A stretch of 36,452 nucleotides of DNA from a virus. Position 1 is the stretch's first letter; every line of letters starts with the position of its first letter. Of the stretch, positions 2,664 to 14,839 are shown piece by piece. The stretch is from positions 1-36,452 of the IMG/VR virus record IMGVR_UViG_3300032207_000453; one strand, written 5' to 3'. Position numbers and translations under genes: made by a program. A model generated the notes under the pieces. It saw only the letters and a program-made list of their open reading frames with translations, was not told the origin of the DNA and searched no databases.

Positions 2664-2685
2664 AATGTGAACGATGGATCACATT
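2664..2685 (-). other. Inverted repeat spanning the gp23 stop codon
   Basis: AATGTGA and TCACATT form a 7-bp inverted repeat with an 8-base loop. The gp23 stop codon TGA (2681-2679) lies at the end of the 5' arm. It sits six bases upstream of the terminator stem, so the gp23 mRNA would end in two tandem hairpins. It has no T tract of its own. A role in mRNA protection is inference. Confidence 0.5.
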
Positions 2686-4070
2686 AGGTTCTTAACAGTT
2701 ACACGTCTGTAGTAACGGTTTGCGTTGACATTTAGTCCACCGAGACCCTGGTTGGTGCCTTCTGCGAATGGGTTAGCAACTAGACCGTAACGGGTCTTGA
2801 AGCCAATTTTTGGCTGGAAGGTGTTCTCGCCAACTGCACGTACCATCTGGAGAGGTACATATGGGCAGTAGAAGAGACCTGCGTCATAAGGTGAAGAACC
2901 CTTATAACCTGCAACGTAATACTGGTTAGTAGCATTGTTTGCAGAATATGGGTCGATGTATACACGGAACTTACCGAGTAGAGTACCAGCAAAGGTGTTG
3001 CCAGTGTCATCAACGTTGAGATTTGCGTTGAGTGCTGGGGTGTAGTCTAGAACACCAGCCATTGCTAGTGCAGAAGCAACGTCTGCAGAGCACATGATGA
3101 TGTTGCCCTTTCCTCTACGAGTTCTCTGTGCAATCTGGTTTGCATCACGCTCGATTTGGAAGAGTAGACCCTTGAACTTCTCAACAGACCAACGACCGTT
3201 GGAGTCGATGTCTAGGTCGAACTCACCAGCAGTTGCGGTGTTGACGGTAGCACCTTGCTCAGCAACCTTGTAGATGGTACGAATGACTTCACGGTTGATC
3301 TCTGCAAGAATCTCTGTGGAGAGAATGTTTGCGAGTTCAGCCTCAGCATTCAGACCGTGGATTGCCTTGATGTCTTGTGCTAGTTCTAGGGAGTACTCAG
3401 CTTTGAGTGCTCTGGACTTTGCAGTCACAGTAACTTTCTCGATGCTGAATGCCATCTCGTTGAACTGATCGGTGACGCCGAGATTCTCAGCATCATCAGT
3501 TCTCATGCCCTGTCCAACGTTGTAGGATAGGGAGTTACCAGTACCAACTGGGTTTAGAACGGAAGGATTACCACCTGCTTGTGCAGTAGTACCCATACCA
3601 GCAGTAGCATCAGTGAAGCCACTGGTATTGTTGAATCCAGAATCCTGTCCAGAGAATGCAGTATCTGCTTCGTTGAACAGTGCTTCGGTTCCGCTCTGGT
3701 TGGTGTAGCGGGAACGCATTGCGAAGATGAGTCCAGTAGGACCACTCATTGGCTGAACACCTGCGAGGTCGTATGCGACCAAGTTAGGCATAGAGCGTCT
3801 GATTAGGGAAATCAGAACTGGGTCGAAACCTGCGGTAGGACCAGCATCTGCAGATCCACCTTGGAAACCATCAGAACCTACTGCATTGGTTGGTGCTTCA
3901 GTTAGGAAGGATCCAGAGTTAGAGAAAGCATTTTGCTCTCTTAGGAATTTTTCTTGGTTTTCTAGCAGGACTGCGGTAACTGCTCTCTTATGGGAATCTT
4001 GAATATTTTCAAGACCCTGGTGATCGAGAACGGGTGCCCACTTCTCCTGCAATTGCTCGGAATTGAACAT
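2679..4070 (-). CDS. gp23: Major capsid protein gp23
   Basis: A 463-residue T4 gp23-type major head protein (T4: 521). It has the helical N-terminal pro-sequence (residues 1-58, starting MFNSEQLQEKW) and a clear prohead-protease site, FLTE58 followed by APTN, fitting the T4 gp21 consensus (L/I)-x-E. The mature chain would hold about 405 residues in the HK97 fold. The segment DPVLISLIRRSMPNLVAYDL (about 83-102) and the C-terminal RYYRRVTVKNL are typical of the family. It assembles into the hexameric shell around the gp22 core. A short RBS (AGGTAAA) precedes the ATG. The 48-base gap from gp22 lacks a clear TATAAATA element, so expression may depend on the gp22 promoter. A strong terminator follows. 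Confidence 0.97.
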   Translation of the reverse strand: MFNSEQLQEKWAPVLDHQGLENIQDSHKRAVTAVLLENQEKFLREQNAFSNSGSFLTEAPTNAVGSDGFQGGSADAGPTAGFDPVLISLIRRSMPNLVAYDLAGVQPMSGPTGLIFAMRSRYTNQSGTEALFNEADTAFSGQDSGFNNTSGFTDATAGMGTTAQAGGNPSVLNPVGTGNSLSYNVGQGMRTDDAENLGVTDQFNEMAFSIEKVTVTAKSRALKAEYSLELAQDIKAIHGLNAEAELANILSTEILAEINREVIRTIYKVAEQGATVNTATAGEFDLDIDSNGRWSVEKFKGLLFQIERDANQIAQRTRRGKGNIIMCSADVASALAMAGVLDYTPALNANLNVDDTGNTFAGTLLGKFRVYIDPYSANNATNQYYVAGYKGSSPYDAGLFYCPYVPLQMVRAVGENTFQPKIGFKTRYGLVANPFAEGTNQGLGGLNVNANRYYRRVTVKNLM

Positions 4071-4117: not shown

Positions 4118-5266
4118 TCAGTTTTTAGCAAATGAAGAGAGTGTCTTCAGGTATGCTGCCATAGATCCAGAAACCTGCTCTGGAGCAGCATCTGCACCTT
4201 CGGATAGTGTCTCAGTTTTTGCTTTTGGAGCTGCCTTAGTGGAGAAATATGACTCCTTAAGTGTCTCCAATTTTTCACGATATTTTTCTTCACTTTCAAA
4301 CTCAACACTTTCAGCAAGTGAAGCGAGCTTTTCCTTCTGTGTCTCGGCGAGACCACCAGAAACTTGATCAAGAATACCCTCAGCAACAGCCTCTGCGAGT
4401 CTGGAGTTTAGGGAAACATTCTTCTCAATTTGCTCGTTGAGTTTAGTCTCCATGTCATCAAGTTTTTCTACCATGCTATCAATTACATTGTATTTCTCTT
4501 CAGGGATAGTTACATAATGTGCTTCAAAAAGATCCTTCATTCCAGAGAGGAAGGATTCAGTCATTTCGGACTTAAGTGCATGTTCGACTGCGAGTTCGTT
4601 TTCGGACATCCACTCATCTGCAACGTACTCTAGATAAGAGTCAACACGTGCAGTTAGACCTTCTTTAATTTCTACTACTTCTTCAAGTAGTTTTTCTTCG
4701 TATTGTGCTTCTAGACCTTCTTTGATTGCTGCAACCTTTGCATTGATTGCTGCTTCAAAGATGGTTTTTGCTTTTTCTTGGAATTCTTCGGAGAGTTCCT
4801 CACCTTGGAGAAGTGCGTTAACATCTTCTTCCATGTCATACTCAACTGTCTCTTCTTCGACAACTTCTTCTTCAGTAGTTTCTTCTTCAGCAACTACCTC
4901 TTCGGTTGTCTCCTCATCTTCGGTGACAACTTCTTCTTCTGTGGTTTCTTCTTCAGCAACCACTTCATCAGTGATTTCCTCTTCTTCCTTCATGCCTTTT
5001 GGCATTGGATCTGCTTTACCAGCAGACTTAGTAACAACATCTCTAACTTGCTTGAGTGTTGCAGCTGGTTCTTTGAGTTTTGCTGAATCGTCGTCAGACT
5101 TATAATTCTCGGGGGTAGGACCACCAAGATCTTCTACAGAAGCAAGTTGGGTTCCAGGATCTGCCATTGTTGGCATAGGATCTGCTTTGGCAGCTCCAGC
5201 ATTAACAGCAGTGTTGGATTGCTTAGTGCCTGCTTCCATTTCCTGTAAATTGTTGTCACTAGACAT
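4118..5266 (-). CDS. gp22: Prohead core scaffolding protein gp22
   Basis: A 382-residue highly acidic, helical protein in the T4 gp22 position between the protease and the capsid gene (T4: 269 residues). The C-terminal two thirds (about 150-330) is long heptad-like helix, as expected for a scaffold core that gp21 later digests. The N-terminal part is longer than in T4 and low in complexity: KADPMP occurs at 27-32 and 84-89, and an acidic Glu/Thr/Val block spans 93-148 with a 14-residue unit repeated at 101-114 and 123-136. Possible gp21 sites include LAE before AV in the helical region and LSE before GADAAP near the C-terminus. RBS GGAGAG precedes the ATG, and a perfect late promoter TATAAATA lies at 5309-5316. 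Confidence 0.92.
   Translation of the reverse strand: MSSDNNLQEMEAGTKQSNTAVNAGAAKADPMPTMADPGTQLASVEDLGGPTPENYKSDDDSAKLKEPAATLKQVRDVVTKSAGKADPMPKGMKEEEEITDEVVAEEETTEEEVVTEDEETTEEVVAEEETTEEEVVEEETVEYDMEEDVNALLQGEELSEEFQEKAKTIFEAAINAKVAAIKEGLEAQYEEKLLEEVVEIKEGLTARVDSYLEYVADEWMSENELAVEHALKSEMTESFLSGMKDLFEAHYVTIPEEKYNVIDSMVEKLDDMETKLNEQIEKNVSLNSRLAEAVAEGILDQVSGGLAETQKEKLASLAESVEFESEEKYREKLETLKESYFSTKAAPKAKTETLSEGADAAPEQVSGSMAAYLKTLSSFAKN
4823..4990 (-). repeat. Acidic low-complexity repeat in gp22
   Basis: Codes for residues 93-148 of the scaffold protein: Glu, Thr, Val and Asp almost only, with EVVAEEETTEEEVV present twice in exact form. On the plus strand the DNA is a string of cttc/tcttc units. 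Confidence 0.85.
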
Positions 5267-5346: not shown

Positions 5347-5997
5347 TTATAGTGAATTTAGAAAATCATTGAATAATCCGAGCTTGTGCTCATCAAGTGC
5401 TCTTTGATCAACTAAGGTGTTAATTCTCTTTGCAGTTTTTGATGCAATTTGTTCACGAAGGATACCACCTTCCCAAACCCATTCTTTACCTTCCATAATT
5501 CCCTGAACAAATGCATCAGGTGCAGATGGATCGGCAACAATATCTGCTGCAGTTGCTAACATAAAGTCTTCACCAACTTCAGAGTAACCTTCTTTGGTTG
5601 GACGAAGTGAACCAATACCTCTAGAAGAAACACCGAGACATACACCTTCGTTAAGAAGAGACTCGGCAATCTTACCCATTGGTGTTGATAGGATTTGTGC
5701 CTTACCAATGAAGTCATTTCCCTTTTGCTCAAGAGAAACGATTTTATGAGAAACACGGTCAAGGTTAATGGTTGGACCATCTGGATGACCGAGTTCACCT
5801 AGAGCACGACCTTTTGAAATGTGCTCATCAGTATATCTTTTAACCTCACGTTCCATTACGTTACGACGATATACTCTGCCATTACGGTTTTGTTGTTCGG
5901 TTTGTAGAAAAGGTCCTTGAATATAGAGAGTTCTCTTACCGTTCTTTGTTTCGGTAATAACCTCTACCTTTTCGATTTCTTCTCTGATAAGTTTCAT
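5347..5997 (-). CDS. gp21: Prohead core protease gp21
   Basis: A 216-residue serine protease of the T4 gp21 / herpesvirus-assemblin type (T4: 212). The conserved histidine box is GELGHP (His71 within 67-72). The catalytic serine lies in GVSSRG (Ser124/Ser125). Acidic residues in DIVADPSAP (Asp152, Asp156) sit where the family keeps a conserved block. The early segment QNRNGRVYRR (36-45) is also typical. The enzyme cleaves gp22, gp23, gp67 and itself after (L/I)-x-E during head maturation. It begins 4 bases after the upstream 89-residue gene stop (RBS AGGTTAAA), which suggests coupling. A 5-bp inverted repeat flanks its stop codon but does not look like a terminator. Confidence 0.95.
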   Translation of the reverse strand: MKLIREEIEKVEVITETKNGKRTLYIQGPFLQTEQQNRNGRVYRRNVMEREVKRYTDEHISKGRALGELGHPDGPTINLDRVSHKIVSLEQKGNDFIGKAQILSTPMGKIAESLLNEGVCLGVSSRGIGSLRPTKEGYSEVGEDFMLATAADIVADPSAPDAFVQGIMEGKEWVWEGGILREQIASKTAKRINTLVDQRALDEHKLGLFNDFLNSL

Positions 5998-6001
5998 TTG
6001 T

Positions 6002-6271
6002 TTAACCTGTAAATCCTACTTTTGCACCACGAACACTTGCATTTTCAGCATATACACAATGTGCATATTGCTTCTCAAGAATTTCTACAGAATTACCAGG
6101 CATAGTCATTGAACCAATCATGGTTCCACTCTGAGTTTCTACTACAACAACGTGGTATGCTGTAGAAGAATTATTAACAAGTCTGACTGCAGATGCTTGA
6201 GAAAAACTAGTAGCAGTGCCCGTTGTAGTGGGTAAAGCAGATTCTCCACCCAACAGTAATGTTCTGTCCAT
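6002..6271 (-). CDS. 89-residue beta-rich protein, possible capsid-associated; paralog of 13018-13287
   Basis: A small Val/Ser/Thr-rich protein, likely an all-beta sandwich, with no signal peptide or membrane segment. The core reads VRLVNNSS, then SGTMIGSMTMPGNSVEILEKQ, then a closing strand ending KVGFTG. The same order (GGTVLGSVYVAP, VVQKERTD) occurs in the equal-length protein encoded at 13018-13287. Small proteins of this pattern are frequent in marine phage structural clusters, but I know no proven function. The location between core protein gp67 and protease gp21 suggests a prohead or capsid-surface role (inference). Its promoter is a perfect late TATAAATA at 6295-6302, so it may be made in quantity. 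Confidence 0.8.
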   Translation of the reverse strand: MDRTLLLGGESALPTTTGTATSFSQASAVRLVNNSSTAYHVVVVETQSGTMIGSMTMPGNSVEILEKQYAHCVYAENASVRGAKVGFTG

Positions 6272-13017: not shown

Positions 13018-13287
13018 TTATCCCAAATGTGCGATACTTGTAGCATAGATGTCAGTCACTGCTGCTTCTGTTTCCACAGTATCTGTGCGTTCTTTCTGAA
13101 CCACAATAGGTCTATGTGGAGCAACATAAACACTTCCGAGAACAGTGCCACCAGAGTTCTTGATAGTTACCAAGTGTGCGTTACCACCAGCATGGTTATG
13201 CTGAAGAAGAATTCTCTCACCACTATCAATGTTGTCAGCAGTGTTTGTTAATTGGGTTGCTTCACCGAGAAGTTTTACTACGTTCAT
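13018..13287 (-). CDS. 89-residue beta-rich protein, paralog of 6002-6271
   Basis: Predicted all-beta, with the core strands ERILLQHNH, HLVTIKNSGGTVLGSVYVAP and IVVQKERTD and a C-terminal ATSIAHLG. The length is identical to the protein encoded at 6002-6271 and the pattern (Gly-Thr-hydrophobic-Gly-Ser, then beta, then Lys-rich turn) aligns without large gaps in the second half. Overall identity is low, so the duplication is old. The start ATG lies 1 base beyond the TGA of the 516-residue gene, and the stop is 6 bases before gp17. Co-translation with gp17 is likely. Role unknown; a capsid-surface or packaging accessory is a guess from context. Confidence 0.78.
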   Translation of the reverse strand: MNVVKLLGEATQLTNTADNIDSGERILLQHNHAGGNAHLVTIKNSGGTVLGSVYVAPHRPIVVQKERTDTVETEAAVTDIYATSIAHLG

Positions 13288-13288
13288 A

Positions 13289-14839
13289 TCAGCAATTCCA
13301 AGCTCTAAGGGACTTATTGATTCTGCTATCTGGATCGTTAGCAGTTTTGGCAGAAGTAAGTTTCTTCTTCATACCTTTCATTCTTGCACAGAATGATGCT
13401 CTTCTTTTATTGCCCTTCTTCTTAGAAGGTGCTTTTAGATCAGAACCAGGATTCTCTCTTTCATAGGACTTACGTCCTTTTTCATTTAGACCACCAGACT
13501 CAGACTTACCTGCTTTCTTAGTCCAAGCAGCACCCTCAGAAACTTGTAGGAATTGCTCACCTGGTTTTACGTTAGCAATTTCCATATATCTGACTCTACC
13601 ATCAGGATAGACTTTCTGAACTTCAAGTTCAACTTCTTTTCTGGTAGGTCTCTTTGCTTGTGGGAAGAACATCTTGAGAGAATATCCTTTTCCTCTCCAA
13701 GTAACCATAACAAAGAAGATGTTACCAGTTTTTGCAGGAACTCTTACTGCTTCTTCAATTTCTACACCCTCACACTCGCAAGGATCGCAACTGCAATATG
13801 GACAAACCTCATCTTTTCTTTCTTCTGGTTCTACTTCCTCTTTGGGTACACAGTTGGGAACCATTTTACCACCCTTCTTTTTCATACCCACTTGCTTGTG
13901 ACTATCCCAGCAAGGATCATTATCACCACCATTCTTTGCTTCACCAAGATCTACTTCTTCTTTTCTGGTCTTCTTCTTTTTAACGCAGTTTGGATATCTC
14001 TTACCAAACATGGTCTTCATACCCTTCTTCTCATAACCATCCCAGCAATCTTCGTTGAATAGTTCTGATCTCCAATCAGAGTATTCTTCTTTCTTAGTGC
14101 TATTGCCCCAATTAGCAGCACCAACCTTACGACACTTAACTAGTGCTCCAGATGCATACGCAGAAGGCCATACAGAATAACGAGACTTGACCTTATGGTA
14201 GCAAGCATCTTTTGATCCACTACCTTTGCCTTTCTTATCTTTAGCCTCAGTCATTGCTTCAAGATCATAAGTCTCATATGACTCGATAGGTGGTGCTTTT
14301 GATTCCATTGGTTTTGTCTCGATAACGTCTTGTATTACTGCAAATGTCTCACCATATGCATCAGTGAGTTCAACATCTTCTTTTACCTTTTTCTTTGGTT
14401 TATCGGTTGAAACATAAGTTGGTTTAGCAGCACCTGATTTTTGTTGTTGACCAGGATCTGCTTTCTTCTTTCTTCTAGCAGCAGAAAGTCTTTCCTTTTT
14501 ACTCATGCTTGCACGTTTTGATGAAGAAACACACTTTGGAGTTCCTTCACCTGGTTCATCACTCGCACAGGTTCCACCTGTTACTACATTGACCCATCCA
14601 CCTTTACCATCTTTAGATTTGGATCCTTTGAACCACTTGTGAAGAGTTCCTTCACTCACCCCGCCACCATTTTCACCACCATTACCTTCAGAAGACTCAC
14701 CATTTCCATTCTCTTTCTTAGTCTCTTCATCATCCTTTTCAATCATTCCACCACGACCCACATGCCAACCGACAGGAATTTTCTTACACTTCTTGTCGGT
14801 ATAGCACCAGTAATATCCTGGTTTGCAGGTCTTTGCCAT
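13289..14839 (-). CDS. Modular basic Cys-rich phage protein, possible processed core protein
   Basis: A 516-residue Lys-rich protein that reads as a chain of short modules: an N-terminal CKPGYYWCYTDKKCKK (5-20); a basic segment HKWFKGSKSKDGKGGW to STD (67-146); a Cys-Tyr-His-Lys module with VWPSAYASGALVKCRKVG (213-240); two copies of CWDxxxxxGMK...PNCV (265-286 and 310-331); a CPYCSCDPCEC knuckle (346-356); a beta segment around MVTWRGKGYSLKMFF (378-392); and a C-terminal DUF6321-like domain (from about 448, ending RINKSLRAWNC). The single modules recur in many marine phage proteins, as far as I recall. Between modules lie VSE63-G, MTE198-A, LGE300-A, IEE363-A and VSE435-G, all resembling gp21 sites. 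A role as injected or core DNA-binding peptides is inference. Late-like CTAAATAA lies upstream. Confidence 0.8.
   Translation of the reverse strand: MAKTCKPGYYWCYTDKKCKKIPVGWHVGRGGMIEKDDEETKKENGNGESSEGNGGENGGGVSEGTLHKWFKGSKSKDGKGGWVNVVTGGTCASDEPGEGTPKCVSSSKRASMSKKERLSAARRKKKADPGQQQKSGAAKPTYVSTDKPKKKVKEDVELTDAYGETFAVIQDVIETKPMESKAPPIESYETYDLEAMTEAKDKKGKGSGSKDACYHKVKSRYSVWPSAYASGALVKCRKVGAANWGNSTKKEEYSDWRSELFNEDCWDGYEKKGMKTMFGKRYPNCVKKKKTRKEEVDLGEAKNGGDNDPCWDSHKQVGMKKKGGKMVPNCVPKEEVEPEERKDEVCPYCSCDPCECEGVEIEEAVRVPAKTGNIFFVMVTWRGKGYSLKMFFPQAKRPTRKEVELEVQKVYPDGRVRYMEIANVKPGEQFLQVSEGAAWTKKAGKSESGGLNEKGRKSYERENPGSDLKAPSKKKGNKRRASFCARMKGMKKKLTSAKTANDPDSRINKSLRAWNC

Follow-up and report, generated by a model that had tools for sequence, protein, structure and literature searches.

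A modular cyanophage protein with putative gp21-type cleavage motifs at the junctions between its modules

A 516-residue protein is encoded in the window, the 36,452-nucleotide stretch of viral DNA analysed here (IMG/VR record IMGVR_UViG_3300032207_000453). The protein is a chain of small modules, or beads, and its relatives carry a recurrent hydrophobic-x-Glu motif at the junctions. This anatomy and the junction signal are shown, as is the absence of the signal where no protease was detected. The junctions are very probably cleaved by the phage's gp21 prohead protease, an inference made without direct cleavage data. The full model, a gp21-cleaved polyprotein whose beads are retained in the head as internal peptides, is likely, with both cleavage and retention inferred.

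Architecture and setting of the 516-residue protein

The ORF has an ATG start, and its translation was confirmed. It lies in the structural region of a T4-like cyanophage, with gp23, gp22, gp21, portal, tail tube, sheath and terminase in order (Table 1). The best PHROGs match is phrog_727 (E 8e-136); further PHROGs match too, every one of unknown function. The nearest isolate ortholog is in Synechococcus phage S-SCSM1 (87% identity), where it is also placed beside the large terminase, and 498 phage records match the protein. Pfam finds DUF6321 (PF19846) at the C terminus as the sole domain (E 2.9e-22; 79.5 bits versus a curated cut-off of 28.5; model positions 1-72 of 72) and no enzymatic or embedded peptidase domain. 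No match was found in NCBIfam or by a PDB sequence search. The C-terminal bead is a member of the DUF6321 family, whose homologs in S-SM2, P-SSM2 and P-SSM4 constitute cluster T4-GC119 (PMC3037559). In the sources examined, these are described only as hypothetical proteins, with no function assigned.

Two 89-residue proteins of unknown function are also encoded in the window, at 13018-13287 and 6002-6271. They weakly share phrog_19805 (E 0.025 and 1.6e-26, respectively), and the N terminus of the first reads MNVVKLLGE/A (a slash marks a candidate or reference cleavage bond throughout).

Table 1. Coordinates of the polyprotein, its predicted pieces and the head genes of the window
Feature	Description	Coordinates	Strand	Basis or remarks
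Polyprotein ORF	516 residues, modules m1-m2-m4-m5-m17-m7-m8	13289..14839	-	Translation, PHROGs, S-SCSM1 ortholog
Piece 1, residues 1-63	Cys cap CKPGYYWCYTDKKCKK and Gly/Asn-rich tail, end VSE63/G	14651..14839	-	Module m1, in 92 ORFs; net -1
Piece 2, residues 64-198	WFKGSKSKDG module and acidic spacer, end MTE198/A	14246..14650	-	Module m2; net +5, pI 9.1
Piece 3, residues 199-263	DACYHKVKSRYSVWPSAYASGALVKCRK module, end YSDWRSELFNE263/D	14051..14245	-	Module m4, in 182 ORFs
Piece 4, residues 264-300	DCWDGYEKKGMKTMFGKRYPNCVKK module (Cys module), end LGE300/A	13940..14050	-	Module m5
Piece 5, residues 301-363	PCWDSHKQVGMKKKGGKMVPNCV repeat and CPYCSCDPCEC cluster, end IEE363/A	13751..13939	-	Module m17; acidic, net -7, 7 Cys
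Piece 6, residues 364-435	AVRVPAKTGN.. domain, two strands/helix/strand, end VSE435/G	13535..13750	-	Module m7; pLDDT ~84-92 over 371-420
Piece 7, residues 436-516	DUF6321 (PF19846), net +16, pI 10.5	13292..13534	-	Module m8; Pfam match
gp21	Prohead protease (Peptidase_S77), presumed processing enzyme	5347..5997	-	PF03420, E 5e-35
gp23	Major capsid protein, reference cleavage site LTE58/A	2679..4070	-	PF07068, E 1.5e-146
gp22	Scaffold	4118..5266	-	PF25623, E 9.7e-81

An earlier note, made from sequence alone, had read the protein as a possible gp21-processed chain of at least six basic or Cys-containing modules. The modular chain was confirmed, with the correction that pieces 1 and 5 are not basic (Table 1). 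All five Glu-Ala/Gly bonds that it listed, after residues 63, 198, 300, 363 and 435, are present; its predicted piece lengths of 135, 102, 63, 72 and 81 residues are correct, and the reference site that it gave in gp23 was confirmed. A sixth candidate bond, FNE263/D, stands ahead of the Cys module and was absent from its list. The T4 gp21 rule of L or I at P3 (PMC9026906) is met at two of the five original bonds (LGE and IEE), the other three being V or M variants. The term "gp21 consensus" was loose usage, with L or I at P3 in about 40% of junctions across the family.

Composition-matched shuffles give 1.14 expected occurrences of the loose motif [LIVM]xE[AG] in this protein, against the five present (P 0.005), and 0.37 of the strict motif [LI]xE[AG], against two (P 0.05). 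The motif is over-represented in gp22 of the window as well (7 versus 2.6 expected). Because the excess in the 516-residue protein is just modestly above chance, and the loose pattern was picked after the sequence had been viewed, the single sequence is suggestive only; significance comes from the homologs.

An AlphaFold2 model built on 22 sequences has a mean pLDDT of 58 and places better-predicted beads between disordered linkers. All five original bonds fall in segments with pLDDT <50; FNE263/D misses such a segment by one residue. DUF6321 is modeled as helical (mean pLDDT 72.6). Neither the whole model nor DUF6321 had a fold match in the PDB, and hits in a viral structure library came chiefly from the same phage family, with the addition of a single protein named for DUF5872. 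Since the alignment is shallow (22 rows), the per-bead folds are tentative. Residues 223-231 (VWPSAYASG, in piece 3) are invariant in the 22-24 homologs aligned, and E363, the last residue of piece 5, is likewise invariant in homolog alignments.

Junctions and stand-alone modules across relatives

The comparison set comprised 332 loci, drawn from phage isolates and viral contigs, and 16 models were built to represent the modules. These annotate 353 ORFs, 200 of them multi-module, in 140 architectures. The junction set was made non-redundant at 60% identity across 18 residues; related viruses are still not fully independent. The motif [LIVMF]xE occurs at 211 of 272 non-redundant junctions, versus 39.7 +/- 5.7 when the 25 upstream residues were shuffled (maximum 57 in 1000 shuffles). 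The upstream linkers are highly divergent, yet hydrophobic-x-Glu precedes nearly every module, in front of 14-15 unrelated module families and in varying module orders. Non-redundant junctions carry it before m7 in 37/37, m5 in 28/29, m2 in 23/25 and m8 (DUF6321) in 45/55. Junction windows span 13% of length and hold 62% of all [LIVMF]xE[AGS].

When 12 residues were scanned at P1, Glu was the sole one enriched (z 34), the other 11 all falling below 0. Enrichment at P3 is for M, V, I and L (z 11-19), and at P1' mainly for A (30) and G (23), next E (18), then D, S and K. Chance occurrence in acidic linkers was ruled out by the shuffles and these residue-specific controls. The specificity at P1, P3 and P1' is likely to be a protease signal rather than a property of acidic linkers generally, an inference from sequence with no cleavage data behind it. 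By the earlier note's own account, homologs with the same modules and no junction motif would have refuted its idea; the junction counts do not refute it. The homologs consistently without the motif are stand-alone genes in records where gp21 was not found. The polyprotein interpretation is supported, while cleavage, head retention of the pieces, DNA binding and injection remain inferred.

The P3 counts are V 71, M 53, I 52, L 35 and F 9, with V or M in over half. At the gp23 cleavage site, P3 is L in 62 of 62 non-redundant relatives. More than a third of junctions have E, D or K at P1'. Either cyanophage gp21 tolerates M or V at P3 (leaders, described below, show M), or some junctions are poorly cut; we can only note these as possibilities.

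DUF192 (PF02643, E 3.6e-24) is the sole Pfam domain besides DUF6321 above cut-off in the relatives scanned. It forms one exchangeable bead (L083 5515-7641; S-SM2 SSM2_109).

Stand-alone DUF6321 genes occur in Pelagibacter phages HTVC033P, HTVC034P and HTVC022P, Prochlorococcus Autographiviridae phage P-SCSP1c and Planktothrix phage Pag-Yong1. They typically begin MAK(T/S)P, exactly where the fused form shows xxE/GA, and no hydrophobic-x-E motif was found in true stand-alone DUF6321 genes. gp21 (PF03420) is present in 20 of 21 fused-module records versus 0 of 19 stand-alone-DUF6321 records, the latter including five complete isolates. Many records are fragments, and a gp21 could be hidden in incomplete ones. 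The association of gp21 with fusion also tracks ancestry (T4-like versus others) and therefore amounts to one or a few evolutionary events.

Two polyprotein modules have genes of their own in HTVC033P, m0 (40% identity, E 6e-19) and DUF6321. In this 53-kb phage, the two sit within a row of seven genes whose products are all very small and highly basic (gp36-gp42; L087 892-2237). Mutual exclusion of polyprotein-borne and separate modules was considered and rejected. For m12, which is inside the polyprotein in 8 cases, a separate gene in 14 and both in 0, the trend is not significant (Fisher P 0.18); m7 is often present both ways, the separate copy being a diverged m7-type gene.

Leaders on sister genes and virion evidence

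T4-type leaders on sister genes and some relatives are shown. In polyprotein-encoding loci, leaders resembling a capsid-targeting sequence (CTS) open 36 of 37 stand-alone m7-type genes and 33 of 34 stand-alone m12 genes, for example MKSFQQFLSE/S and MKTFKQFQE. T4 IPIII and IPII begin MKTYQEFIAE/A (from AF158101). In the T4 targeting sequence, residues 4 and 7 serve capsid entry and residues 8 and 10 processing (PMC9026906), and the cyanophage leaders carry F4, F7, L/M/I8 and E10 at the equivalent positions. The pattern M[KRN][STNK][FYLIW]xxF describes 50 non-redundant leaders, 31 of which have (L15, I8, M7, V1)-x-E at positions 8-10. The leaders thus support M at P3 (7/31) and V just once. Three polyproteins themselves start with a CTS-like leader, L184 (868 residues), L227 (504) and L242 (360); in L184, MKSLNLFINE/G stands ahead of module m1, which is also found in piece 1. 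Such an N-terminal leader is absent from the 516-residue protein of the window.

A diverged m7-type gene with the leader MKTFKQFMSE/S lies directly downstream of the polyprotein in S-SCSM1 (PQC12_gp030; L082 13554-13874), with equivalents in other loci. Genes of this type share 34% identity with the m7 bead of the window (E 2e-7); the equivalent position in the window holds a different gene, the 89-residue one at 13018-13287. Leaders also open NMNAT/cytidylyltransferase-like enzymes, MKSFLQFLKE/A in S-SCSM1 (PQC12_gp281; L335 38819-40048) and MKKFSAFLKE/A in P-SSM4 (PSSM4_155; L085 4370-5521).

Mass spectrometry detected 45 proteins of S-SCSM1 (PMC9602691). In its genome record, the virion-protein tag is attached to 47 CDS, including the ortholog PQC12_gp029, but not to the terminases. 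This annotation of the ortholog is shown; that the tag records the mass-spectrometric result is a likely inference from the matching counts and the untagged terminases. Because scaffold and protease are tagged too, the tag alone cannot separate finished cargo from core remnants. The NMNAT-like enzyme PQC12_gp281 was also found in the S-SCSM1 virion. The S-SZBM1 DUF6321 protein (165 residues; S-SZBM1_192 by gene order) is not among the 30 virion proteins listed for that phage. Since Lys/Arg-rich beads give short tryptic peptides, its absence is only weak counter-evidence. Near the DUF6321 gene, S-SZBM1 encodes a hypothetical 87-residue protein, PP650_gp081 (L333 11327-11590; S-SZBM1_195 by gene order), whose abundance index is the third-highest in the virion table (emPAI 2.66; PMC9146016).

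The cleavage model, its rivals and known systems

In the explanation that we favor, the 516-residue protein would be synthesised full length and then enter the prohead core. There, the phage gp21 would cut after hydrophobic-x-Glu in the disordered linkers and free six or seven small and mainly basic beads. The beads would remain in the head as internal proteins, probably DNA-bound and perhaps ejected with the DNA. Retention in the head is the likely outcome, and DNA binding or ejection could as well be wrong as right; both inferences rest on the charge and conservation of the beads and on how they compare with T4 internal proteins. Against the cleavage model stand the lack of any mass-spectrometric neo-N-terminus, the frequent V or M at P3, the frequent E, D or K at P1' and the missing N-terminal leader.

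An unlikely alternative is a sacrificial core component like T4 gp22, gp67 and gp68, cut by gp21 and mainly shaping the prohead core, its fragments exiting the head. T4 core proteins do yield multiple fragments that mostly leave the head (PMC9026906), and gp22 in the window is similarly site-rich. gp67 and gp68 are missing from cyanophages (PMC2984593), so the 516-residue protein could take their place. Against this, the S-SCSM1 ortholog bears the virion annotation, though scaffold and protease bear it too. The conserved, partly folded beads also occur by themselves in phages where gp21 was not detected, which suggests that they function as finished proteins. It is also improbable that the chain stays uncut, with hydrophobic-x-E as linker or recombination punctuation between cassettes and the intact chain acting as a DNA-binding virion or early protein. 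Domain shuffling is very high, as the 140 architectures attest, the related cluster T4-GC119 lies within a mobile cassette (PMC3037559), and V or M at P3 departs from the gp23 site. However, the residue preferences at P1, P3 and P1' match a protease signal, not acidic linkers at large; this signal is missing where the protease was not detected, and sister genes carry it at the end of T4-type targeting leaders.

The motif could also mark relict or working internal start codons (M, V as GTG, L as TTG) inherited from ancestral separate genes. Some ORFs do open MNE/G or MQE/G right before the first module, and M is common at P3. V at P3, however, is GTG in 6% versus a 10% background, TTG is not enriched, I is common, and true stand-alone genes for DUF6321 open with MAK(T/S)P rather than MxE. 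Shine-Dalgarno-like sites stand at 6.5% versus 5.1% background. On codon usage and Shine-Dalgarno counts this explanation was rejected; it is largely refuted and very unlikely.

The cleavage model has a bolder form, an exchangeable cargo cassette of marine T4-like cyanophages in which beads are swapped between phages and gp21-cleavable junctions serve as universal connectors; we would argue for or against it with equal ease. In the same form, one gene would load varying anti-host or DNA-condensing peptides and protease-less phages would carry the cargo as separate mini-genes, which is no more settled.

Like T4 IPI, IPII, IPIII and Alt, the system combines a gp21-bearing phage with small basic products and hydrophobic-x-E sites followed by A, G or S, and a 10-residue leader that matches by position is carried by its sister genes and by some relatives. 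Unlike them, it has several beads per chain rather than one protein per gene, and P3 is commonly V or M. The modules were not found to be related in sequence to the T4 internal proteins. As the window protein is without an N-terminal leader, we class it as working like a T4 internal protein, not as one. With T4 gp22, gp67 and gp68 it shares multiple gp21-type sites within one head protein; here, unlike there, the sites separate conserved folded modules that also occur as free genes, and no sequence relation to those three proteins was found. Head proteins of phiKZ and SPN3US are cut several times by gp175 or gp245 (x-x-E), T4-gp21-related proteases with another P3 preference (PMC5694885, PMC10052503). 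Those cuts trim long propeptides, whereas cuts in the 516-residue protein would yield several separate products. Polyvalent proteins, encoded by phages and conjugative elements, are also multidomain, probably packaged and perhaps processed (PMC5512222); the present protein differs in its tiny basic or Cys beads, in having no enzymatic or embedded peptidase domain found, and in putative processing by a separate gp21.

We found no polyprotein or capsid-targeting work on cyanophages in the open-access literature searched, which excluded subscription papers. If true, the model would describe a tailed-phage head polyprotein in which maturation protease sites release several internal proteins from one chain, and would give a function to a widespread unknown cyanophage family. 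It also brings a T4-type targeting leader to light in cyanophages; carried by NMNAT-like enzymes, this leader offers a simple reason why such enzymes could be present in cyanophage virions.

Two linker motifs recur in the family. The first, [FYI]S[NDE]W[RK] (for example FSDWRSELEE/G), is found at residues 253-263 of the window protein and in the linkers of 48 of 190 polyproteins, at a density of 0.55 per 1000 residues in polyproteins versus 0.0019 in other ORFs. It is possible, though speculative, that this linker is an internal core-targeting element replacing the N-terminal leader. The second, of unknown role, is D[VLI]I[KTE][PA][EDK][PA][LIM] (DVVKPEPL-like), which occurs in 59 of 190 polyproteins, among them L020, L028 and L058.
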